DNA from: Synchiropus splendidus
Lineage: Eukaryota > Chordata > Actinopteri > Syngnathiformes > Callionymidae
NCBI RefSeq assembly: GCF_027744825.2
Contig: NC_071334.1
Span: forward strand, 30,319,937 to 30,383,936
Reading direction: 5' to 3'
Length of the DNA: 64,000 nt
Translations under genes and position numbers: made by a program
Shown here: piece after piece, positions 33,064 to 60,200 of the stretch
Layout: each line of letters opens with the position of its first letter
How positions within the stretch are numbered: position 1 is the stretch's first letter
Notes under the pieces: generated by a model
The model's database searches: none
Seen by the model: only the letters and a program-made list of their open reading frames with translations
What the model was told of the DNA's origin: nothing

Positions 33064-35272
33064 TTTATTTATTTATTTATTTATTTTAAGCGACAAACAT
33101 GGAGGAATCCCTGAACAAAAAGCAAACAAAAGCATCTGTTTGCTTTTTTTCAGGGATGTGTTTCGCTACACAATGCACCAGGGTTTCCACTACTCTGAAT
33201 GTACTTGAAATTCTTATAAAATTTTAATTTTATTTACATTAAAAAGGATTTAATTTAAGTAAGGTGATATAAAAACTTGAATATAGCCACTGTTGTGATT
33301 TATTGTGCCATTTTGAAACTGATACAAATATAATAATATGTATATAATAATATAGTATATTTATAATAATATTTATAATATAATATATGTAATTTATAAT
33401 ATTTTGTTGTTTAAATGCATAATTTGATTCAGTAATATACCAAATTCATTCAAATTGAAAAAATGTGGCTTCTTGTACTTCTTGTACTTAAACTGCTATT
33501 ATTTGAGATTAATTAATCACAAAATCTCGAATTAATTTGATTATTTTTTTAAATCAAATTCCACCCCTAGTTTCTATATTTAATCTTTCTTGTCTATTTT
33601 TTTACTCATTTAAAAGGGATGTAATTCTATTGTCTTTTGCTCCCCACCGGTTTGACTCAGGTGTGATGCATTCGAGAACCCCGTCCTTCAGCAGCACTAC
33701 AGGAACTTGGAGGCCTTGGCCCTGGATATGATGGCCCCTGAGGACATGGAGGATCTTATTAGTGCGTCACAAATGCACTAGCATGTGATCATACTTTGTC
33801 CTTTTTCCTTACCCATTGTTTTTGCCCCCGCAGTGCCAAAGGTGGACCAGATTGACCGCCGGCTGGGCATACTGGCTGATGAATTCAGAGAAATGGTGTA
33901 TCCTGATGGCTACAACCCTGAAAGCAAACCGCCTGCCAAACGCAAACCAGGTCAGTCCACAAGGAGAGGAGTTGGTGGCACCATGTGACAGCAAGCAAAT
34001 CAGCAGTATTCAGTCTAGTGTTGGACGTGAAACTGATTCAATGCCACATCATAATGGACAAAAACAACAAATGCGTGTCCTGAGCAAGCAGGGGAAGGAA
34101 GCTGTGACCTCTTCTGTTCACATGAGCCTAAGATCAGGGCAAAGGAAAGCATCATGAGATATAGATTGTCAAACTTATATTGAGCAATGACGAGAAAAGA
34201 GTTGGCACATGAATTCTCCAGAAAAGATGGAGGTCACGAGAGGCAAGAACAACACTGTTGAACTTCGGAACTGGAGACAAATGTAGGGGGAATTGAGGAA
34301 AGAATCTGACTGACTTGGCAGTCCTTAGCAGTGAGGAATTCATATGGATGTAAATAAGTTTCTAGACAGAAGAGCAACAAGGGGTGCACACAGCCAAGTA
34401 CTGATGAAGTTTCAGGTTGGTACAGTCGATCACTTAAATTTATCGATTTATTTAAATATGTAATTCAGGACGATTTCACATCGATGAAGAACAACTCTCA
34501 CAAGAAGATCTGCCGGCAGCACTCCTCTTCAGCTCGCTGAGGTCTTAGCTTTGATGAACATGACAGTAGCAAACATGGCGGACTCCTCTTTCCGCTGTGA
34601 TTTTTTTTTTGTACAAAAGCAAGCTGTCCCTGGCTGTCCAAGTCAATCAAAATGAAAATCGAAACTAGTGGAAATTTCAATTGTTTTAAGGCCCTTTTGC
34701 CCAGCTCAGAAGATCCATTCTATTAAACAGGATGTGAAGGCTTCCACCATTGCAATTCACTATCCTGACACAAATCTTCATTGTACATCACTATTTTGTG
34801 ATTTTTTTTTTTCCAATCCGAATCACAAAATGTTTTTTTTTTTTCTTTTTTCATCCGGTATGTTTGCATATCATCCAGCGACTCGACTGGACTGAATTAG
34901 TTTAAGAGGTTTCTGGAGCCTTCTCTTTTGATATTTGTGCTAGGAACTTATAAGTTTGTTTGCATTCAACGTATCCCTGAAGTCACAATATTCGTGGTTA
35001 GTTGCTAAAATGAAAGTTAATGGTCAGTGAACCTGAAAGATTGCTAAGTTTGGATGCATTTTCATCTTCCAGCTGCCACCGCAGGCTCTGCAGAGAAGAA
35101 ACCCAAAGTGGAGGTTCCAGAAGACGAGCTAAGGGCGCACGTGAAAAACGGTACACTGTCAAAGCTCACGGTGCCGGTGCTGAAGGACGCCTGCAAGCAG
35201 TTTGGAGTTCGCACCACTGGGACCAAGAAACAGGAGCTGATTGAGGCCCTGATTTCTCGCCTGGCTTCTTGA
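28661..35272 (+). CDS. xrcc6: X-ray repair cross-complementing protein 6 (Ku70), complete
   Basis: Twelve coding exons: 28661-28733, 28808-28920, 29119-29260, 29332-29583, 30524-30710, 30797-30980, 31056-31224, 32263-32424, 32634-32763, 33661-33761, 33834-33950 and 35073-35272. They total 1830 nt, 609 residues, the same length as human Ku70. Ku70 pairs with Ku80, encircles DNA double-strand ends and recruits DNA-PKcs for non-homologous end joining. Visible landmarks are an acidic N-terminus, the vWA-like domain ([20 protein letters not shown]), the Ku core (KLYRETN-type [31 protein letters not shown]), a basic segment (PPAKRKP) and a C-terminal SAP DNA-binding domain ([18 protein letters not shown]). 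A noncoding first exon probably ends at 28441, splicing to 28657. All key regions are intact. Confidence 0.96.
30251..30299. repeat. (TA)n microsatellite in an xrcc6 intron
   Basis: A perfect alternating TA run of about 49 bases. Confidence 0.95.
32997..33086. repeat. (TA)n followed by (TTTA)n in an xrcc6 intron
   Basis: About 62 bases of alternating TA pass straight into about 26 bases of TTTA units. Neighbouring DNA to 33550 is very AT-rich and shows no exon. Confidence 0.95.
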
Positions 35273-35473
35273 GTAATTTCACTGTGCTTTCAGACTTGCC
35301 GGTGAATGAATGTGTCATGTGACCTTTCTCAAAGAGCTAAAACCTTGTGACTGACTTTGTTGCCTCAATGTTTCACACCATTTTTATTAAGTGAAATTAA
35401 GTTTTCAAATCTGCTGCATTGCTCTTAAATCTGTTGCGTTGTCTTAAAAAAGTAATCATTTTACTGCTGCGTC

Positions 35474-35479
35474 AATAAA
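35474..35479 (+). terminator. xrcc6 poly(A) signal
   Basis: AATAAA about 200 bases after the Ku70 stop codon, with a T/G-rich stretch (ctgactcagtgtgc) following. It would give a short 3' UTR and end the gene before the GIMAP-like gene begins at 35792. Confidence 0.7.
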
Positions 35480-35791
35480 ATAAAAGCATTTTCCTACTCT
35501 GACTCAGTGTGCTATAAATACACATTTCTTGCGCCTACAAGTCCAGTCGAACTTGTCTCAACAAAAGGTGTGTCCTCGGTTTTATCGTCAGCCTGAGGAG
35601 GGCAGGCATGTGCAGGTGTGACTGCCAGGAAGTGGAAGTCTCCTTCACACTGACCATGTGAGCGTTGCGTCAGAGATTTAAAGGCTGCGAGTCGAGGAAG
35701 GTGGACTGTGAGCTTAGTTGGGAAGTACAAAAATGTTTGACTTTTAGAATACTTCAACTCTTGTGCTTGAGGTCGCTCCACTGATTTTAAG

Positions 35792-38700
35792 ATGGAGTGT
35801 AAATGTGACAACACTGAGGATGTTTCAGGTAAGAGTGTTCTGACAGTCTGCAGGAACTTGATATCAGTGTGACTGAAATAACATGTACTGTTGGATTTTT
35901 CTGTGTGAAGGATGGTGGATGACTGGCAGCAACATCCAGATGGGAGCGTTCACCGTCTTTGGATATCTTCTCTACAGATTCTCACAAAGTTAGTGACACA
36001 GAATCGTGAGTGTCTGCAAAGGCCGGGCAAGATTGTTGACGCCACTGTTCATGTCTTAGGTGAAGGGTTTTTCAGTTACAGAAAACTGAAAGATCTTCAG
36101 GGTGTGAAAGTACAACAGCTTCATAAATGAACTTGTGGCCTCTAATGTTAACAAAGGAGCCGTGAGTGAGTCAGAGGTCATTCATTAATAAAAAAGAAAG
36201 GATTGCTTTTGGCCTCTACACTGGTGAAATGACAAATTTCACTGACTCGTCTGAATCACAGGGGACACTTTGAATCAGTTTTATTTATATATGTATATAT
36301 ATTTTTATAATATTCATGGGGAAAATGACGTCAAAACAGAAATAAAATGGCAAAAAGGTGTTCTACACTCATTTTTTTCGAGATGAATAATACTACTACT
36401 TTAACGCAATGTTTCAAACATCTATTTAATACATTTATTTATTTTAATGTAGTTTGTAGTTTTTGAAAGTCCCAAGTCTTCGTGTGAACCCGAAATATAT
36501 TGAATGGGAATCACAGTTGGACTTTGCAATTGCTTTGCAGGTCACCAGGCTGGATCAATGGTAGAGGTCATATGGTTGAAACCGTCTGCTCTGGAGCAAG
36601 ACGTGGCCCTTGCTTTCTGGACCATGAAAACATTTGATCCCTTAACTATTCTTCTTGGATCTGTAGACAGAAGAACACCAATATTAGACTGCATTGTCCC
36701 TTTAAAATGATTCTTTCTGATATGTCAAACATGTCCAGCATCAGTAGAGGTGTTCACAGTATTAACTGCAGTCTGTTTTCTGTTGCCTGGACAGCACTTC
36801 CTGCTCTGATCCGCTGGCCGATCCGTTTTTTTTGCTCCATTACTGGTGAGTGGAAGGATGGTGGTCGACAGCAGGTTAGATAAACAAAGCATGACATAAT
36901 AATCCTTGGCGTGTCTCATGTCTTCTGTAGGTTTGTCGACTCTATGGGGTTGGGTGAGCCGCATCGTGGGGACTCTCCGTGGTAAGTCATCAAACCTCAC
37001 AAAATGTATGTCGACACTTTCAGCCAGTGAGCCTCTCTTTGTGTGTTTAGGGATCCAAAGCTTGTGTAAATGGTTTTCACGAATATGGAAGTTTTTCAAA
37101 GGTGAGCACTAACTGTTTCTCTCTGAGTCTCTTCCTAACAATAAATGATGATGCTTGCAACGTGAATGAATGTATTCTAGCCTCTGAGGTGGCCGTGCGA
37201 TATGAGGAAACTTCACAGACCACAGGGGTCAAACTCAAATATGGGGGTTAAAACAGGGGGACACATTGATCATAGACCTCCCACCTTTGTATGATTCACT
37301 TCCTAGTCATTCTTATCAATACACTGACATCAGCTCTACTAACAGCGCTTGCCTCCAAGTTCCAGTGGCTGAGTGACATCATCAACACCCTCACAGGTCT
37401 GAGTGCTTCCATTCTTTTTCCTTGATCATGTTGGATTGACTGGTTCTGTTTGTGGTTTAACCACATCACCCATTCTTCAAGTGTATGTACCACAGGTACT
37501 ACAGTAAAACAACCTAATACTGAGCACATTAAGTGGTCTTGCACTTCATTCTGTTGAGATTTAAGTACCATTCATTTGATTTTTTTTTTCTAGTATAATA
37601 CATAGTAGTATAATAATACATAGAAAGACACATAAACAAACTCTTACAATACAATACAGTAAAATAACAAAAGTTCTCTCTTATATTATTTTATTTTCCA
37701 TTGGAAAACTATAACACCAAGAAACAACCAAAACAGAAAAAAAAATAAAGAAAAATAATGGTTTGTTTATTTTTATTTTGATTCATTTATAACAGATATT
37801 TCCATATAAACTTTCTATCACAGGTGACATTTGCCAGATTCCAGGTGCTCCACGTTATACAGTATGATGACATCACCAATACATCAGCGATAAAGGATAC
37901 ACTTTAGATATAAACTCAACACTAGTTCAGTTAGAGTCAATGCTATTGTGGTCTTGTTTAAAGTCAACTTTCATTGACTACTCCGGGGTATACACTTTAA
38001 AGAGGCACTAATCTCTACTTACTATAACTTATAACTTACTATAAGTTTTAAGTGGTTTATTTAGGGTAATAAACACATATTCTATTGTTGTACATTGAAT
38101 GAAGTGTAAGACTCGTGGCTCTCATCATCATGCTGAACTGTGCAGGGTCTACAGAAGCTGCCAGTCATTCGAAACCAGATCTCCGTCTGATCCTTGTGGG
38201 CCCAGCTGGTGGAGGACGCACCTCTGTTGCAAACACACTTTTGGGCAGCAGAATGCCACATACTGCAGGAACAATGGTGGAGAGCACCAGGAGAAGAACC
38301 GTGGTGGCCGGCAGTGAGGTCACAGTGATCGATACCCCTGACCTGTTGAGTCCTGCTTTGGGTACTCCAGAGAAAATAAGAGAAGCTCTGCGGAGCATTC
38401 AGCTCAGCAGTCCCGGACCCAACGCTGTCCTGCTCGTGATGCGAGCTCCAGGTGCCAATGGAGGGATGGACCATGATGCAGCTCAGGCAGTCAAAACCAT
38501 CCTCCAGCTTTATGATGAGGACATTGTAAACTACATCATCCCGGTTCTCACACATGCCGACTGTCTTGATCACACTCTGGAGGATCTGCTGGACAGGGAC
38601 ACCGCAGGCCTGAGAAGAGCTGTGAGTCTGTGCGGTCAGAGGCCAGAGCTAGTTGACACCAAGCCCAAACAGTCCAGGGAGGCTCAGCTTGCCTCACAAA

Positions 38701-38843
38701 AAGCGCTGTTGGGTCGAGTGTTGGAGATGAAGACACACAGGGGTCATTTCAAACACCAGCTGCAGATAAAGGAAGAGCAAATGAGGGAGAAGCTGCTGAT
38801 GGACATGACCCACGACGTGCTGATGAAACATGGTCTCATGTAA
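35792..38843 (+). CDS. GIMAP/AIG1-like GTPase with an N-terminal array of 17-residue helical units
   Basis: Proposed exons: 35792-35828, 35911-35988, 36795-36845, 36931-36981, 37051-37101, 37346-37396 and 38146-38843. They total 1017 nt (338 residues), all joined in phase 1. The last exon encodes an AIG1-type G domain: P-loop GPAGGGRTS (about 125-133), switch region DTPD (about 169), a THAD motif where GIMAPs have T(K/R)xD, and CGQRPELVDTK before a charged C-terminal helix. AIG1 GTPases sit on internal membranes and act in lymphocyte survival and host defence. The P-loop Lys is Arg, so nucleotide binding may be weak. Residues 13-38 are hydrophobic and aromatic (GAFTVFGYLLYRF), a possible membrane anchor. 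Residues 39-106 are four Trp-centred amphipathic units. Exon 35911-35988 has weak splice sites. The final exon is confident; the upstream exons are inferred from frame, phase and repetition. Confidence 0.68.
36795..37396 (+). repeat. Four tandem 51-nt phase-1 exons encoding 17-residue amphipathic units
   Basis: Exons 36795-36845, 36931-36981, 37051-37101 and 37346-37396 are each exactly 51 nt, with AG before, GT after, and phase 1 at both ends. Unit 1 is (T)LPALIRWPIRFFCSIT, unit 2 is GLSTLWGWVSRIVGTLR, unit 3 is GIQSLCKWFSRIWKFFK and unit 4 is ALASKFQWLSDIINTLT. Trp is at position 8 in all four, Leu/Ile at position 2, Arg at position 11 in three, Ser at position 10 in three, Ile at position 12 in three. 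Spacing of the hydrophobic residues fits an amphipathic helix. Introns between them are 85, 69 and 244 bases. The pattern is best explained by tandem exon duplication. Confidence 0.72.
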
Positions 38844-39820: not shown

Positions 39821-40746
39821 GTGAGTGGTCGTTGACACAACTTACAAGGCGGCGTTGTGTTAGTTTGCGCGTTAAACGGACTAATGGCAGCAGATACGTG
39901 ACGCTTTCTTGTACAAATATCGTCCACCGTCGTGTTTCTGCCGTGTCAATACATCTCTTCTTGGGTTAAACCTGCCTGCCCTCTGCCTGTATGTGTTTAA
40001 AAGAGGCTGTTGTCATGTAGCTAGCTTACTGAGTAGCCTGCTTCCTCTTCCACACCGAGCTGCTGGAAATGTTTACCTTCTTTTTGGGCTCTGCTGACCA
40101 TTGTTTTTAATGATTTTTTTCCCAGTCCTGTGTGAGATAAGCGAACCATTGGAGAGTGATTTCAAGTGTGTTTTGCATTGCTATGAATGGTTGAGTAAGT
40201 TCTTGGAGAATGTCTTCACCATGAATGGGACGCTGTGTGTTATCTCTCCCAGGTTTCCACAGATTGCTGAGCATCATATCCTGACTGCGTCTGCTCCAGA
40301 GGCTAATGGTCGGTGTCAGCAAACCCAGTGATGGAAAGAACTGCAAAGCTCCAGGCTTTTGGGGACTGGATGTAATGAGCTGCCATCGCCGGCACCCAGA
40401 GGATGGACTAGGAAAGAATGCTGACACAGCCAAGATGCCTTTTTGATTTAGGTGTTGTCGTTGATTGTCATTTGCCCAAGGAGGTGTTAGCAGAGTTTGG
40501 GGTTTGGCCGCTGTGCCCTCCCCTCGGCCGATCATTCTTCCCATCAATTATTCAGAGGAAGCAGTTGTTTCTGTTTTAGTCACAGGTCTCATTTACCTTG
40601 CAGCCGCCCCCCCCGCCTTCCACACAGTCTCACAGACTAGCCCCTCTCTTCCAAACGGCTGAGAGGTTGTCATGGCGATGGTTGTCATGATGCAGATGTA
40701 GCATTCTGAAGGTGGAAGTGGTGGAGGAGGGAGTCGGAGACCAGCA

Positions 40747-43700
40747 ATGGGGAGTGCACCATGTCCAGCTGGGGAGTGGAAGGGCAAGGGAAGAGGTGGC
40801 CTCCAGGATCTTGGTTGCATGCCGTGGAAGGTCAGCAAGCAGAAAGGTGGAGAGGAGGATTTGCGAGCCGAGGAGCAGAGGTGTCGTGATCCCAGGGACT
40901 CTCAGCAGATGCAGGATCTCTCTTCCTCCTCGTCCTCCTTCACCCAACCAGCACCACTTCAACCCGCTTTGACACCACCGGCTATTTATCATGAGAAGCA
41001 GCGGAGGGAACTGTGTGCCTTGCACGCCCTCAACAACGTCTTTCAGGATGGCTCGGCCTTCAGTCGGGACACGCTACAGGAGATCTACCAGAGGTGAGTT
41101 CTCCGCCGGGCTGAGTGGGAGGCTGCGGACCAGCAGCTGATCACGGTTGCCAACTCTTGCAGGCTTTCTCCCAGCACACTGGTGACTCCTCACAAGAAGA
41201 GCATGCTGGGAAATGGAAACTATGACGTTAATGTCATCATGGCCGCGCTGCAGACGCGAGGGTTTGAGGCTGTTTGGTGGGATAAAAGAAGGTAAGTCAT
41301 TGACCGAAGTGGGGTGAAGGGGTTGGTTAAAACAACAGAAGTCATTTCTTGAAACTTAAAAAATATACTTTTTTATACTCAGTTATATAGGCATTGTAGA
41401 AAAATGTTTACAAGTAAGGGCACTTGACACTTGTAAACACGATTGACCAATATTTCCGCTTCTGCCCATAACTTGTTTTTGTTATTGCTTATGTCAGTTC
41501 CTTGAAAAACAAGTCTTGTTTGTTCCAATTATTCTTAAGGGTCACGCTCACACGCTCAGTCCTCTTGTGATGTAGCAGGGGAAACATTTTTCTTTGCTTC
41601 TCTTTCAAAGTTCTTACAAGTACAAATATTTTAAACAATTTATTGCGGCTACTGAAGATTTCTCATCAGATAATTAGAGACATTTTGCTACTTTCTGAAG
41701 ATGTATGCGCTTGAAGAGTTGTCTTTTTATTCATGCACCGTCTTGTGACTGGCGCGCACAGTAGAAAAGCACATCAGCTTAAAAGTGGCCGAAAGCAGGT
41801 GAGGAAAATTCCTGAGCTGCCAAATCTTGATCTTGCTAACAAATTCTTTCATTGTGCTGCTACACTCACTATGTCTACTGCATGTCTCTTGGCAACAAGA
41901 TATGAGACCTTCTATATTTTTTATTTCATTAGATCTTCATGTTTAATTTTATTAATTATTATTTTAATATTTTTATGTAATAAATGTAATACATATATTG
42001 TACTATAACATACATAATGTTGTATTAATTGAAATTTCATTAAGGTTGAATATTTGGAATATTAACTCCGAATAATACTTCTGCCCAGATAATATCCCAA
42101 AATTATTGGTGCAGCTTCAATACATGGATGTGAAAAACACCATCTTAATAATCGCCTGCACTTTTTTATTAAGGCACTGCATGCAGTAAGTTAGTGCTTC
42201 TGAATCTTATACATCTGACTAAACTATGATCCATCATCTTCAGAACGTCAGTCTTCCTGCTGTTTTATGCACAGCACCATGTGTTCGGTATCGTTCCACC
42301 GTGTCTCTCCTCTGTGAGTCGGCAACACATTTTTTCTGACTCAGTATCAGAGGAGGTTTGTCACACTGATGGATTCTGTACAAATAATTTCCCACAACAT
42401 CTGCACTGCTGTTATTGCTGTGTTCAAGATTGCCAGTACTGGTTTGAAAGTCACATCATCTGAGTCTATATGTATAATCTTTTAAAAAATATATATTTGT
42501 ATTTGTGTGTTTTTAATAAATGCTATGTTTATTAGTAGTCAATTCCGCTTCCATAGTATTTAAATCCAACCAACTTTTTAATGTAGACAGTTTTCTCTCA
42601 CTCCTCAGTAACCTATCAACAATAAATGCTGCAGCATGGTGAAACTTGTAAAAAAAAAGTTCTCCTGGCATGTGTATGGTTACTTTTTAAGTGGTATCTA
42701 ATAATTGTATCCCGCAGAGTGTTAAACGAGAAAGCGTAGTTTGCACGAACAGAATTTTATGTATATATTTTATGTATATATAGTTCTCAAATGTGAGGGG
42801 CCATCATGCCAAAAGAAAAGATGGCTACGAAACGTGACGGAAAAAAAAATCATAAGAAACGTGGACGGAATGAACCATTTAATATTCAATAGAAGCAAGG
42901 ATATTGAGCGTAAATATGGCATGAAACCTATAAAAATGTATTTCCAAATATATTTTCTTTTTTTCTTTCAACGACTTTTTAGGAAAATACTATTTACTAT
43001 TATACTACTATGCTATTGATAAACTAAAATAAGAAACAAAATGTAGTCATGAATGTGTTGTATTTACTGTTGAACCAGTACTGGCTGAAACAGAAACAAC
43101 AGAAAAATGACAACCTATCAGTTGTATAATTTTTGTCTGACTTCTGGAGGGCCACAAAAACACAGGCAAAGAGCTGCATGTGGCCCCTGGGCTGCATTTG
43201 CCCAGGTCTGGGTCAGTGGGAGGTTAGTGAGAGGTTGAATGAAAGCGTCAGGACTGGCTGTGGACGCTATGGTCATTCCCTGCAGCAGAGGGCAGTATAG
43301 AGGACGTTGAGGATTCTGTGGGAGAGTTTTAGCGTCACATGCTGCTGAGGCCGTTTGGCAAGTAGGGCAACACGGGTAATAAATGTATTTTTATTTTCAC
43401 ATGATCAAATGATGAGTAGCTCGCGTGTGGTCAATGGCTTGTCTCCTGTTCTTCACGTCAGAGCCACATAGCTAAAAATAAACTTCTCTCTGTACTTCCT
43501 CCAGGGATGTTGGCAGCATCGAGCTGTCCAACGTGACTGGCTTTATTCTGAACGTGCCATCCAACCTTCGCTGGGGCCCTCTGCGGCTGCCGCTCAAGCG
43601 CCAGCATTGGATTGGGGTACGAGAGGTGGGCGGGGTCTATTATAACCTGGACTCCAAATTGCGAAGCCCTCAACAAATCGGTTGTCCAGATGAGCTCAGG

Positions 43701-53680: not shown

Positions 53681-54233
53681 CTACATGATGTCCAAACTGT
53701 GGTTAATGTTCGTCGATAACTCCTGGTTGTTGTTGTTGTTGTTATTATTGTTGTTGTTGTTGTTGTTACCTCCCAGCATGTCTGACGGCGCCCCCTGGCC
53801 TCCATGCATAGCCGTCATTCCGCTTAGCTGAGACAAGATGGCGTTCTGGTCTGCGCTGAACTGGCTGGGATCCACAGAACCAGCCTGCTGCTGCTGTGGT
53901 ATTGTCTGCGGTTGTGGTGGTTGAGGTGGTGCCATACTGGGGTGGTGTTGGCCCATGTGGCCCGGGTGAGGAGATCCTGTCTGAGTTTGGGGGGAGATGC
54001 GATGAGGGGAAGGCTGGGGCTGAGGTTGGGAGGAGGGCTGCATGCGGGGGGAGGGGCTGGAACGAGGAGGCTGCGATTGTGGCCGTGGAGATGGTTGGGG
54101 TGACCTGACCTGACTGCTGAGTGGACCTGCAGGACCAAGTCCACCTTGACCCTGGAGATGAGGCGACTGTGCCAACGGCTGTTGAGGGCTCATGGGGCTG
54201 CTGTGCTGGGCTGGAGAGCCCCCACCAAGGTGC

Positions 54234-54272
<39 letters not shown>

Positions 54273-57200
54273 TGCAGGAGCCTCTGATGGATGTTCTGGT
54301 GAAGGATGCTTTGGGTTGACTGAGGCATTTGAGGTCCACCGACCCCACCACCCAGAGTAGTCTGCGGCTGCTGCTGCTGGACCTGAGCAGGTCCACCTTG
54401 TCCAGGCTGGTGCTGTGGTCCACCTGGTCCTGCCGCTCCAGCACCTGGTACGCCATCTTGCCCTTGAAGCCCCCCCATTGAATTTTGCTGTTGCTGTTGT
54501 TGCTGCTGCTGCATCTGCATCTGGTGTAACCTTTGCTGAAGGGCAGCAGCTACGTGGGACACAGAGCCCTGGTACCCTGGTTGTTGTCCTGGTGCAGCTT
54601 GTGGCCCCCCTTGCTGTGGCTGCGCACCCCCAACTCCAGTTGCCGACTGTGGCTGGGAAGTTGTTCCTTGTGGCCCCTGACCAGCCTGCATGAAGCCCTG
54701 TTGGTTCTGTGGTTGCAGCCCTTGAGGCTGTTGGAACTGTCCATGGTTCCCCATTTGTTGTTGCTGTTGTTGTTGCTGCTGCTGCTGTTGTTGTTGTTGT
54801 TGTTGCTGTTGCTGGAGCTGTTGCTGCTGCTGCAGATGTCTTCTCATCAGATCCCTGAATTGTGGACTCATATTGGACATGTTGCTCTGTTGCCCTGGTT
54901 GCATTGCTCCCTGCTGCGGCTGCTGCTGTTGTTGTTGTTGTTGTTGTTGTTGTAGGGCAGCCATTTGTTGCTGCTGTAAATTTCCAGGCAACATTGGACG
55001 CTGTTGCAGCTGCTGCAGCTGAGCCATGGTGGGCATGTTTCCTCCAGTAGTGCCACCCTGACCCATGCTATGCACCGACTGGCCAGCTTGGTTCACTGGC
55101 ACCTGCTGCTGCCCATCCATATTAGCCAGCTGATTAACACCAGGACCCCCCATAGGAGTTGCACCCCCATTAGGCCCTGGAAACCTAACAGCTCCGGGAC
55201 CTTGTGGTGGTCCACCTGGAACAACGGGACCCCCCTGACCTCCTTGGACACCTTGATATCGAGCAGCTCTCTGCCTGATGAAAGCAGCCATAAGAGTTGG
55301 GTTGGATCGAAGAATACTCAAGACTTGTTGCTGCTGAAGTGGCGAGCTTGGGGAGCGAAGTGTCCGCAGAAGGTCTTGCAGTGCAGCCTGTGGCAGGTTT
55401 CCTGGTCCACCAGCACCTGGCATAGCAGGGGGCGCGCCCGGTCCCGCCCCAGAAACACCCATCACTTGCATCAGTGCCCTGTTTCCTGGCTGTGGCTGTT
55501 GCGGATTCATTTGCTGCTGTTGTGCAACTACTGACGGTGATGCCATGTGACCCATCATGCCTGCCCTCTGTTGTGGGTTTAGTGCAGGACCTCCAGCCCC
55601 CCACTGTGGATTTCCTTGGCCAATTTGTCCACCAGCTCCTGACTGGAGATGCTGTTGAACCTGCGGTGGTAACTGAGACTGGGGGGCACCTGGCTGCATC
55701 CCAGCCAGCATTCCCTGTTGCTGAGGATCTAACATAGCCCTGCCTACGACCCCCTGAGCCTGAGGGGGGATGCCCTGGGCCCCCATGTGATGCATTCCCA
55801 TTTGGCCTGGGGTGTTTTGGTGATGAGGGTGAGAGGGCATCATGGGTCCCTGGCCTAACCCACGAATCTGGGCTTGAGCCTGAGCCATTTGTCTCTGGGT
55901 TTCAGCCAGGCGCTGGATTTTCAGAGCAGTCTCTACTGCAGCCAAAGGGGGTCCTTGCTGCTGTCCAGGTGCAGGCATTGGCCCTTGGTTCTGGTTGGGT
56001 TGTTGCTGCTGCTGTGGTGGAGTGGCAGGGCCAAGTCCAGGTTTTCCCATGGACTGGTGGATGGGAGAAGCCCCAGGAGGTCGAGGATTGTAAGGGGGCA
56101 AACCACCAGGGTGTTGCTGTGGCTGCTGGATTTGTTGGACATTGGGGGGCTGCTGCTGGAGCTGGGAAACCATCTGTTGCTGAGGGGAGTTGATCATACC
56201 CCCTCCACCACCCATTGACTGAAACTGGTGATGGAGGTGATGCTGAGAAGCCATGGTTCCACCTGGCTGTTGCTGTTGTCCAGGAGCGCCCAAGCCCCCC
56301 ATGCCAACAACCTGCTGCTGGGGAAGAGCAGGCAAGTTCCCCTGTGTGGGTGTCTGTGGTGTGGGTGGCTGTGTACCTGCAGATGTTGGTGTCCCAGGGC
56401 CACCATTGTTGGGCACTGGCGAGGGCAAGCCATTCCCGCCTGGACCTCCCCCAGGTTTGCCAGCTCTCTGCATGCTGGCCATTCGTCGTCTGAGCATCTG
56501 AGCATGTTGCAACCGATGCTGCAGCTGCTGCTGACGGAGCTTGTGCTTGATGTTCAGACAGAACGGGACTGGGCACTTGTTCTCCTGACAGTGTTTAGCA
56601 TGGTAGCAACACAGTGCGATGAGCTGTTTGCAGATGGGGCAGCCGCCGTTTGTCTTCCTTTTGCAGCTTTTAGTATGCTGAACCACTCGTTTCATCTTCT
56701 GGCAGGACGGCAGTGAACAGTTTGCATTTCGACACTGACACGCGTGGACAAGGGACTGGATGCAGCGCTGGATGCTGAGGCGCCGAGAGTCTCCAGGGCT
56801 CTGAGTGGTAGCTGAGGCCTGGCTGTTGCTCTCATCATCAAGTCCGAGGCCTAACTTCTCCATCCTGTGCTCGTGACCCTTTGTGTTGTAGCACGAGATG
56901 CAGAGGTCATAGTCCTAAAAGGTATGGCAGAGATGACGAATTACATTTACACCAACACGTCATCTCCGTTGACTGAAGATCAGAACAATATTGAATCTCA
57001 AACTCACCTCACAGACAGTGCAGTGGAAGCGTGTTTCCACATGATGTTTGCAAAGATTGCAAGTGTAAACAAAGCGATCCTGACTTTGGTTGTGCAGCTC
57101 CACCAGCATGCACATAGAGCTCCATTTGGACCTCCTCAGCGAGCTGAATTCTAAGTGCTTGTCCCGGGCCAACGTGAGAAAGGCATCCCGCCCGTCCATG

Positions 57201-60200
57201 AGATCACATGCCATTAAAGGATCAGGGTCGACAATTGGTGGCAAGGCATTGGCCATAGGCCCTGCGATCAGCCTTATTACGAAGAAAACCTGGGGAGGGA
57301 CAGAACAGTCCGTCATTTTAAAGATCAGCCATGGGGCCACATGAAAAGCTCAAGGGCTGTTGACATTCTATGCCGCGTTTGGAAAATAATGATGATCAAG
57401 TCTGGGTTTAAAAAAAGTGTACCTCTTTGTGTTTTTCCATGGTTGCGTAAAGCTTCTGCGATAAGTCATTGGAGACATTGGGCATCCCTGGCTTCTTTTT
57501 ATTGGCTCGGCTCAGACTGCTCTTGTTCTTACTTGTCTTCTTATTGTTCTTCTTTTTGGCGTTCTTACTGTCACCTTTCTGATCCTGCATATTAAAAGAC
57601 AGGACGCCATTTGTGATTAATATGAAGAAGGTTGAATGCCGACATGCCTGCCTTGTAACCTACGTCAATACTCTCGTTCGAAGTGCTGTTCTCCTCCCGT
57701 TTCCTCTCTTCTTCCTCCTGCTCCAGCTCTTTGATGCTCTCCTCCAGGACATTAGGCCAGAAGTCTCCCTCAAAGTACGGCAGCTCTTTAGCACTGGTCA
57801 AACGATCCTCTGTCGCCTGCTTGAATATGTCCTGTTGAGGAGAAATGAGAGCAAGTGAATTCAACCCACGTTTACCCAACTGTATGTGTATACAAATGAA
57901 GATGAACTCCTCTTACCTTGTAATCATGCACTATCCGCTCTGCCACAGCTTTGTCTAGCATCTTCTTGTACCACTCCTGCAGGCGTTTGGGCTTTGGGAT
58001 CTTCTGATCAGCAGGGTGACAATGGAAGATGTAATCATCTCCTTCACTAGGTGGGCAGGCCCAGATGTGACCAGTCGTGTACCTGCAGAGGATAGTTTTA
58101 GCGGGCATTCACAGAGTTTTACAACTTTCAGCATTCATTAAACTTTACTACCAGTGTTTGGCCTCAGGACTTTACTTCCTATTACAACAATCTTTGCAAA
58201 AGAAAACTCTTTTAATAGACAACTCACCCCAATCTCCTAACATACTCCAAGTAGCCCAAGAGAATTTCATGATAAACTGCTGTTCTCAGGATTCTTGGTC
58301 GGAAAAAGTGCACACTGTCCAGATAGGATATGTAAACTCTCCTGAGAGGAAAGAGAGTTATAGCGTAAATACAAAACTCAGGTTGGACTGAAACTCCATG
58401 TTTTGGCTCATATATATTGAAAAACATCATACCTCTGGTTAGGTTGAGGGCAGTCGGATCCATACTCTTGAACATGCATTCCAAAGAAGCAGACGTCAGC
58501 TCCATCGATATCCTCGAATGCAAAGAGAGCTTTTGTTCTGTATGGAAAAGACTCAGACATCTCTCCACTGTCCACAAATCTGGAAAATGAAAAATGTTTT
58601 AAAAATTACCATGAGATCACATCATCTCACCTTCGACAATACCATCATGGACATATCACATATCATTTTCAGGAGTTACGTGTGGATAGTGTGCATAGTG
58701 AATGTGTGAGAGCGTGTAAAAGATCATTGTGGATTCTGTTACTTTAGATTAGTTACTGCTGAGAGTATTTATTAACATGCATAATAAGTGGTCATAAAAT
58801 ATCAAATGTAATCTGTTCAAACATAATCACAAACCAACCCCCCCTCTGCATGAAATCAGGATATTCAAGTACCTAGACTTCATTCCTGGCTTGACCTCCA
58901 CCACTTTGTCAGAAACATGCACTACACGGATGAAAACCTCTCCAGCCTCTGGATTGTTCTGACGCTTCAGATAGTCGTTCACCCTCGTCTCTAGGTAAGA
59001 GCCCAACCTGGTTGGTGGCAATCCTGCAAGACAGGTAAAGAAAGTTTTTTATGAATTCAGAACACAGTGATAAGCCTTAGCAAGTGACATAATATGGGAA
59101 GAAATGTGCCTTACTTTTTGCTGAATACTTGTTTTCTTTCCGTGTCTTATTAGTCTTCTTTAAACAGCCATCACACACAAACCTTTTGCAGAAACAAGAA
59201 ACATTTATTAACATCATGTTAATAAGTATTTTAGAATATTGAGGTATGAATAGAAAAGTAGATGCTTACCCCGATGGCCAGATCGTATCATTGTGCAGGA
59301 CACAAATCTGATGCATCCTGCGTCCACAGTCCAAACATTCAACTAGCCTTTAAACAAAAAACAGCAAAAATCATGTCACAGTTTTACGAAAGGCAAAGTA
59401 GAAAAAAAAAGAAAACAAAACAAAACAAAAGCTTTACTTACAGCTCAGGGTCCAGTGTGTCATTCTTTTTCTTTTCAAACTGATCTTTGTTAATTGAGCT
59501 GAAATAAGAAGAGATCAGAGAAATCTTATAAAAGTTCGCAACATTTTTCTCAACTGAGTAATTACTTATTACATTTATTCCATTCAGTGAAAACATAATG
59601 CATAGCTTGCACCAACCTGAAGCCTCAAAAAGTATTTTGCATTGATCTAACTGTAATTAATTACTGTCTCACAGGGTCTTCACACTTGAAAAGTTCAAAA
59701 TGTTTTTTACATGTGTGGAAAGTGATTTTAAAAACACAGCATAGGAAACATCAAAATCAAATATTCAGAAAATGAATGCAAAAACGTTTCATCCTTTATT
59801 TCACTTGATGAATGAGTATTTGCTTTTTGTATTTCTAACACCATGAAAACCCGAGCAATGGCAGGCAGATGAGACGGATGAGGTTCCGTCTCATCCATCC
59901 ATTTCACCTCGTGCTCCAAGTGTGTAAAAAGTTGAATAACATAAATAGCTGCGACGATATTAAAAATATTTCAGCCATACTCACGTTTGAGGCTGCGTTG
60001 GGTCATCACCCAGGGAAACCGTCTCTCCCTGGATCTCGTTGAAACACTTCTCGCAGAAGTGGTACCTGTCAGCAATAAGCCCAAATTGTGGTGAACTACA
60101 CCATTTCCCCAATGCACAGTCAACCACAGACAGCGCATGGAGAGCAGTCACCAAGTGGAAGAGGACATGGAAGCGTGCGAAGTAGGAGCACACGGACATC

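Follow-up and report, generated by a model that had tools for sequence, protein, structure and literature searches.

GIMAP proteins are viewed as GTP switches, several of which are anchored near the C-terminus. Septins, from a related GTPase superfamily, bind membranes through amphipathic helices, but these helices are not known to be encoded by an array of exons preceding the G domain. The GIMAP/AIG1 literature describes a C-terminal transmembrane segment in some GIMAP members (PMC3100574) and a coiled coil beside the AIG1 domain (PMC3100574, PMC7053062). Biomphalaria AIG proteins are described in PMC7053062 as an AIG1 domain combined with extra N-terminal parts, in which splice variants differ; these additions are death, kinase or ARM-type domains, whereas the gene presented here carries tandem 17-residue helices.

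We identified this gene in a window of DNA (the whole stretch analysed, 64,000 nucleotides) from the dragonet Synchiropus splendidus (Syngnathiformes, Callionymidae). It is conserved among teleosts and presumably functional; its GIMAP-type G domain lies behind a helical module encoded by one 78-nt and four duplicated 51-nt exons. Our comparisons rely on 126 related proteins (P0001-P0126), collected from the best 120 of 204 and the best 120 of 194 matches and clustered at 90%; these share ancestry and are not independent observations. Their named sources are, as we recognise them, teleosts, including tarpon, eels, salmonids, pike and percomorphs. Set against human GIMAP1, 2, 4, 5 and 7, the array gene has Arg for the P-loop Lys (in 108 of the 126 relatives), has no C-terminal hydrophobic stretch, and adds the repeat-built N-terminal module. 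The gene is already public under many GIMAP names; among the titles and abstract openings of the GIMAP literature listed, none describes the module.

A splice model between 35792 and 38843 on the plus strand joins seven coding exons into a protein of 338 amino acids:

35792..35828, plus strand: coding exon 1 of the splice model, with the ATG, encoding MECKCDNTEDVS plus 1 nt; Cys-x-Cys start
35911..35988, plus strand: coding exon 2 (78 nt, both ends in phase 1); begins the first long helix
36795..36845, plus strand: array unit 1 (exon 3), TLPALIRWPIRFFCSIT, 51 nt, phase 1 at both ends
36931..36981, plus strand: array unit 2 (exon 4), GLSTLWGWVSRIVGTLR, 51 nt, phase 1 at both ends
37051..37101, plus strand: array unit 3 (exon 5), GIQSLCKWFSRIWKFFK, 51 nt, phase 1 at both ends
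37346..37396, plus strand: array unit 4 (exon 6), ALASKFQWLSDIINTLT, 51 nt; the unit most frequently missing
38146..38843, plus strand: coding exon 7, with the linker, the AIG1 G domain (P-loop GPAGGGRTS), the C-terminal helices and the stop

A protein search matched this product from end to end, at 100% identity, with a public S. splendidus entry titled "GTPase IMAP family member 1-like isoform X1". The initial annotation of this DNA had proposed four AG...GT-bounded segments of 51 nt, phase 1 at both ends, each with a Trp at unit position 8, spliced in frame to an AIG1-type exon. The segments and their phases are indeed present in the window, the Trp is seen in all four units, and the splice model reproduces the in-frame joining to the exon at 38146-38843; moreover, since the product is identical to the public protein, the four junctions proposed there match the annotated gene model. 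That annotation captured the four units and the AIG1 exon and overlooked exons 1 and 2, the extent of conservation and the altered P-loop. All six introns are in phase 1, so that exon 2 and each of the 51-nt exons can be removed without a frameshift. An M-x(1,2)-C-x-C N-terminus is present in 104 of the 126 relatives. Within the upstream region 35273-35900, simple pattern searches retrieved one TATAAA, at 35513, and no ISRE or GAS interferon-type elements.

Contigs from relatives bear on the exon structure as well. Eleven 'lgn' proteins (316-347 aa, from contigs of 1137-2335 bases) represent full or nearly full frames that run across the exon joins; in the shortest contig 1044 of the 1137 bases are coding, leaving no room for introns, so such contigs represent spliced products. 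Some of these lack the first residues, and one (P0087) lacks unit 4. The exon borders recur in nine short 'lgn' frames from unspliced contigs (P0131-P0139), in which exon 2 (5 of 9), unit 1 (4), unit 2 (1) or unit 3 (1) runs into the intron; the eel-like and salmon-like P0137-P0139 had weak E-values (0.004, 0.03 and 0.12) and were assigned by eye. We considered whether the array also exists as a stand-alone protein, and rejected this: an array-only search gave 13 matches at E up to 1, all of them short models or unspliced frames, none of which points to an array lacking the G domain. The annotated short models among them (P0127-P0130) break off inside the array, right behind it or barely into the G domain, and we take them for partial models, although real short forms may exist.

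The four 51-nt exons are homologous repeats of symmetric phase, forming an exon-duplication array. Taken in exon register, the window's four units greatly outscore both free shuffles (z = 9.0) and shuffles within hydrophobic and polar classes (z = 6.6), with none of 50,000 shuffles reaching the observed score in either case; the consensus of the 126 relatives gave z = 8.8 and 7.6, respectively. As the units have a sharp period of 17 residues and outscore shuffles that preserve the hydrophobic pattern, they are true repeats. The self-similarity of the consensus, examined at lags 5-34, stands out at lag 17 (1.27) and lag 34 (0.88), the next being lag 24 (0.14). Registers offset by 1-4 residues scored 115-127, slightly above the 111 of the exon register, and the repeat test therefore does not fix the border of the ancestral unit.

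An AlphaFold2 model built with 30 sequences (mean pLDDT 81.4) predicts helices at residues 19-55, 58-94 and 96-105, which roughly correspond to exon 2 plus unit 1, units 2 plus 3, and unit 4, in addition to C-terminal helices at 284-305 and 311-334; a model of the Megalops protein made without an alignment reached a pLDDT of 52.6 and was set aside. Each unit is amphipathic, with hydrophobic moments of 0.47-0.73, the largest in unit 3, exceeding those of shuffles at p = 0.003-0.032. The earlier picture of an array of amphipathic helices therefore stands for the character of the units, but not for their number as helices, as the model shows two long helices and a short one instead of four. With thresholds of our own choice, an amphipathic cationic filter was passed by 39 of 72 17-residue windows in residues 19-106, as compared to 0 of 205 in residues 118-338. 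Units 1-4 carry net charges of +2, +2, +4 and 0, and in S. splendidus units 1-3 are rich in Trp and contain no acidic residues. The lipid discriminant, with the HeliQuest formula and a cut-off of 0.68, is 1.11-2.01 for units 1-3.

On balance we lean towards a reading in which the amphipathic N-terminal module anchors a GIMAP-derived G domain, altered in its nucleotide site, to a membrane, and in which in-frame skipping of exons trims this anchor. The module would most likely hold the protein on the cytosolic side of a membrane, with its Trp-centred, mostly cationic amphipathic helices inserting into the lipid surface, possible hinges at the Gly or Ala residues close to the unit 2-4 borders, and lipidated N-terminal Cys residues perhaps assisting. 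Such a module would take the place of the hydrophobic anchor that some other GIMAPs carry at the C-terminus. In S. splendidus, unit 4 speaks against an anchor, as its net charge is 0 and its lipid discriminant (0.45) falls below the cut-off. The geometry also does: on an ideal alpha helix the hydrophobic face turns by about 100 degrees with each 17-residue unit (phases 260, 154 and 75 for units 2-4), so that the period denies a single flat helix one common face, and either kinks near the unit borders or a twisted bundle are required.

The twisted bundle is the basis of one alternative, namely that the array is a protein-protein module in which the twisted hydrophobic stripe of the 17-residue repeat would form a helical bundle, either by self-association or with another protein. 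In helix 58-94 the moment peaks at 104-106 degrees per residue, or about 3.4 residues per turn, a value that in our reading fits a left-handed supercoil more readily than it fits a flat helix; unit 1, moreover, is almost invariant at most of its positions, which suggests a specific partner. However, units 1-3 combine their lack of acidic residues and their many Trp with net charges of +2 to +4, and a fold search yielded no chain matching the N-terminal array, though the matches listed were filled by the G domain. We regard a bundle as quite unlikely.

Unlikely, too, in our estimate, is a monotopic helical hairpin, proposed by analogy with lipid-droplet and endoplasmic reticulum (ER) hairpin proteins, in which helices 19-55 and 58-94 would be sunk into a single leaflet, with a turn at Thr-Gly-Leu 55-57 and the repeats forming the arms. 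This arrangement would account for the two long predicted helices with a short break at 56-57, for the Gly that opens unit 2 and is conserved in 100% of relatives, and for a module that is hydrophobic yet has no classical transmembrane window (19 residues, above 1.6) in 121 of 126 relatives, with 5 of 126 having one in the N-terminal part; human GIMAP2, moreover, resides on lipid droplets. Against it, Arg and Lys are scattered through both helices, and the confidence of the model, given as pLDDT, dips at residues 51-60 (pLDDT 59). A classical transmembrane helix was rejected for the S. splendidus protein, whose best window reaches 1.17, under the 1.6 threshold, and the C-terminal 78 residues hold no transmembrane-like 19-residue window (at least 1.6) in any of the 126 relatives. 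A Pfam search of the module returned nothing above the cut-off, the sole match being Treslin_N at E = 0.2.

Conservation is unevenly distributed along the protein. The mean frequency of the top residue among the 126 relatives is highest in unit 1 (0.93), the most conserved of the segments measured, followed by unit 2 (0.87) and exon 2 (0.81), and is 0.72 in unit 3, 0.62 in unit 4, 0.70 in exon 1 and 0.72 in the G domain. Since exon 2 and units 1-2 exceed the G domain, the conserved core consists of these segments and not of the whole array; units 3 and 4 are no better conserved than the G domain, which counts against the anchor reading. The Trp at position 8 occurs in 100% of relatives in units 1 and 2, in 79% in unit 3 and, among those with a residue at this place, in 83% in unit 4. 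Residues 27-72 are closer than the G domain to the Megalops protein in 125 of 126 relatives, and likewise to the salmon protein in 125 of 126, the remaining one being in each case the self-comparison. The anchor has seemingly moved to the N-terminus, where it is built from duplicated symmetric exons and its first half is kept more strictly than the GTPase core.

This degree of conservation also bears on the idea, raised in the initial annotation too, that the array serves to disrupt membranes in a lytic, antimicrobial-like manner, a suggestion that the cationic, Trp-rich, amphipathic character of the helices would fit. Typical antimicrobial peptides evolve fast, while among teleosts exon 2 and units 1-2 have changed very little, and the fusion to a G domain further disfavours such a role. 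We consider it highly improbable and the least likely of the rival explanations.

The initial annotation had also raised the possibility that the number of units varies. By an occupancy rule of 12 residues, the array is complete in 95 of 126 relatives, while 27 lack unit 4, two lack units 3 and 4, one lacks units 2 and 3 and one lacks unit 2; the rule overcounts losses, because some unit-4 sequences are merely short, and 18 of 126 relatives have at most 3 residues in unit 4. When 55 proteins without a full array were compared with their nearest full relative, 10 showed a gap whose length is exactly 17 residues, located at unit 4 in eight of them, at unit 2 in one and across units 3/4 in one (the edges being fuzzy), and P0097 showed a gap of 34 residues. 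Exon 2 is absent from the annotated isoform P0091 and unit 2 from the annotated variant P0099; several of the unit-deficient proteins are labelled isoform X2 or higher, and others carry no such label. Variable copy number is thus borne out to the extent that annotated proteins without single units exist; with 95 of 126 retaining all four units, the number is mostly stable and varies mainly at unit 4. These absences are known from gene annotation or contigs alone, and may also reflect missed exons or true gene losses. In the anchor reading, in-frame skipping of unit 4, and sometimes of other exons, would produce shorter anchors, and the gene may offer a natural case in which to ask whether the strength of a protein's hold on a membrane is set by exon skipping.

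Some lineages show further variation next to unit 4. Leuresthes tenuis has one isoform (P0077) with unit 4 plus an insert of 52 residues and another (P0056) without unit 4. By eye, an extra helix-like stretch that lacks Trp follows unit 4 in P0066, P0088, P0105, P0106, P0111 and P0112, and the pike-like sequences seem to carry this stretch but no Trp-containing unit 4.

The downstream domain was correctly assigned to the AIG1/GIMAP type from the outset: it matches the AIG1 profile (PF04548) with 100.8 bits against a cut-off of 27, and its fold was identified as GIMAP by the fold search. Its P-loop departs from the G1 motif GxxxxGKS given for GIMAP/AIG1 proteins in PMC7053062, reading GPAGGGRTS, with Arg for Lys. 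Across the 126 relatives this position is Arg in 108, Gln in 9, Pro in 5, Lys in 2, His in 1 and Trp in 1. An AIG1 profile search of the S. splendidus assembly (582.7 Mb, 96 contigs) found 64 matches, among which the G domain of the array gene ranks 34th by score. In an alignment with the 28 best-scoring other AIG1 domains, which share the domain type with the array gene, 27 keep the P-loop Lys, although choosing the best-scoring domains favours canonical ones and some may be near-identical duplicates; a pattern-based scan recognised the loop in 14 of the 28 (13 Lys, 1 Arg), and the alignment covers all 28. The exception, L021 (G000:C19:15472699-15473492), is a second AIG1 domain with Arg for the P-loop Lys (GRTGSGRSS). 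The 64 matches sit on contigs C1, C2, C3, C7 and C19, and some form mirrored pairs on C2 that may represent a large inverted duplication or an assembly effect.

The G3 position reads DTPD and not DxxG, with Asp in fourth place in 118 of 126 relatives and Gly in 1 of 126; DTPD is also found in human GIMAP2 and in 2 of the 28 paralogs. A loss of the G4 motif was considered and rejected, as paralog sequences such as FTHGDQL and FTRGDEL show that THAD itself aligns with the motif (THGD or TRGD in most paralogs), the Asp of which is kept in 103 of 126 relatives; G4 thus looks intact in S. splendidus, and the P-loop change stands. In P0110, P0115, P0116, P0120 and P0126, two of them from named gobies, the whole P-loop is replaced by RPCDx(R/Q)PSS and G4 is altered. 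With Arg or another residue replacing the P-loop Lys in 124 of 126 relatives, the GTPase label needs care; at the same time, the Arg is itself conserved and G4 matches the paralogs, so nucleotide binding may persist. From its sequence, this is best read as a G domain of GIMAP origin whose nucleotide site has changed; in many species it probably has little or no GTPase activity, and it may act more as a binding or assembly part.

In the 16 relatives that have neither Lys nor Arg in the P-loop, the exon 2 core and unit 1 show the same median identity to the consensus as in the other 110 (0.94), and lower values were found for unit 2 (0.82 vs 0.88), unit 3 (0.59 vs 0.76) and the G domain (0.68 vs 0.75). 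That unit 3 drops more than the G domain in these proteins is a further point against the anchor. A bolder view would turn the GIMAP inside out: throughout teleosts, the duplicated-exon membrane module would be the conserved working part, adjustable by exon skipping, and the G domain, its Lys lost in 124 of 126 relatives, would be decaying in several lineages, leaving a membrane scaffold and not a GTPase. We put this forward tentatively and hold it to be rather doubtful. The gene nonetheless provides a natural case for asking whether a GIMAP can go on working once GTP binding is gone.

Eleven of the 126 relatives bear names that we recognise as syngnathid. In a seadragon genome paper (PMC9245644), GIMAPs were described as contracted in syngnathids, with gimap4 persisting, and earlier work cited there had found gimap4 to rise in Syngnathus pregnancy tissues. 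The presence of syngnathid names among the relatives makes the array gene a candidate for this surviving gene, and it may be the gimap4 kept in pipefishes and seahorses. The listed annotations of the gene include various numbered GIMAP names, 'uncharacterized' and, in two species, josephin-1, and with such mixed names the gene is easily overlooked.

In the window, the gene is flanked by two neighbours on the same strand:

35075..35269, plus strand: upstream neighbour, a C-terminal SAP exon (Pfam SAP, 6.7e-11)
40702..41097, plus strand: downstream neighbour, a frame in which a josephin domain begins (Pfam Josephin, 2e-5; 24.9 bits, slightly below the cut-off of 26)

We take these to be an XRCC6 (Ku70)-like and a JOSD1-like gene, respectively. 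Two relatives of the array gene, P0079 and P0110, are annotated as josephin-1 isoform X1; these names fit a gene position beside JOSD1, as in the window, and suggest read-through or merged gene models with this neighbour. Farther away on the minus strand, an open reading frame at 15320-15928 matches Pfam ALKBH8_N (4e-13) and is presumably a retrotransposon fragment, and EP300/CBP-like frames with long glutamine runs (Pfam Creb_binding, TAZ and ZZ) occupy 53681-57349.
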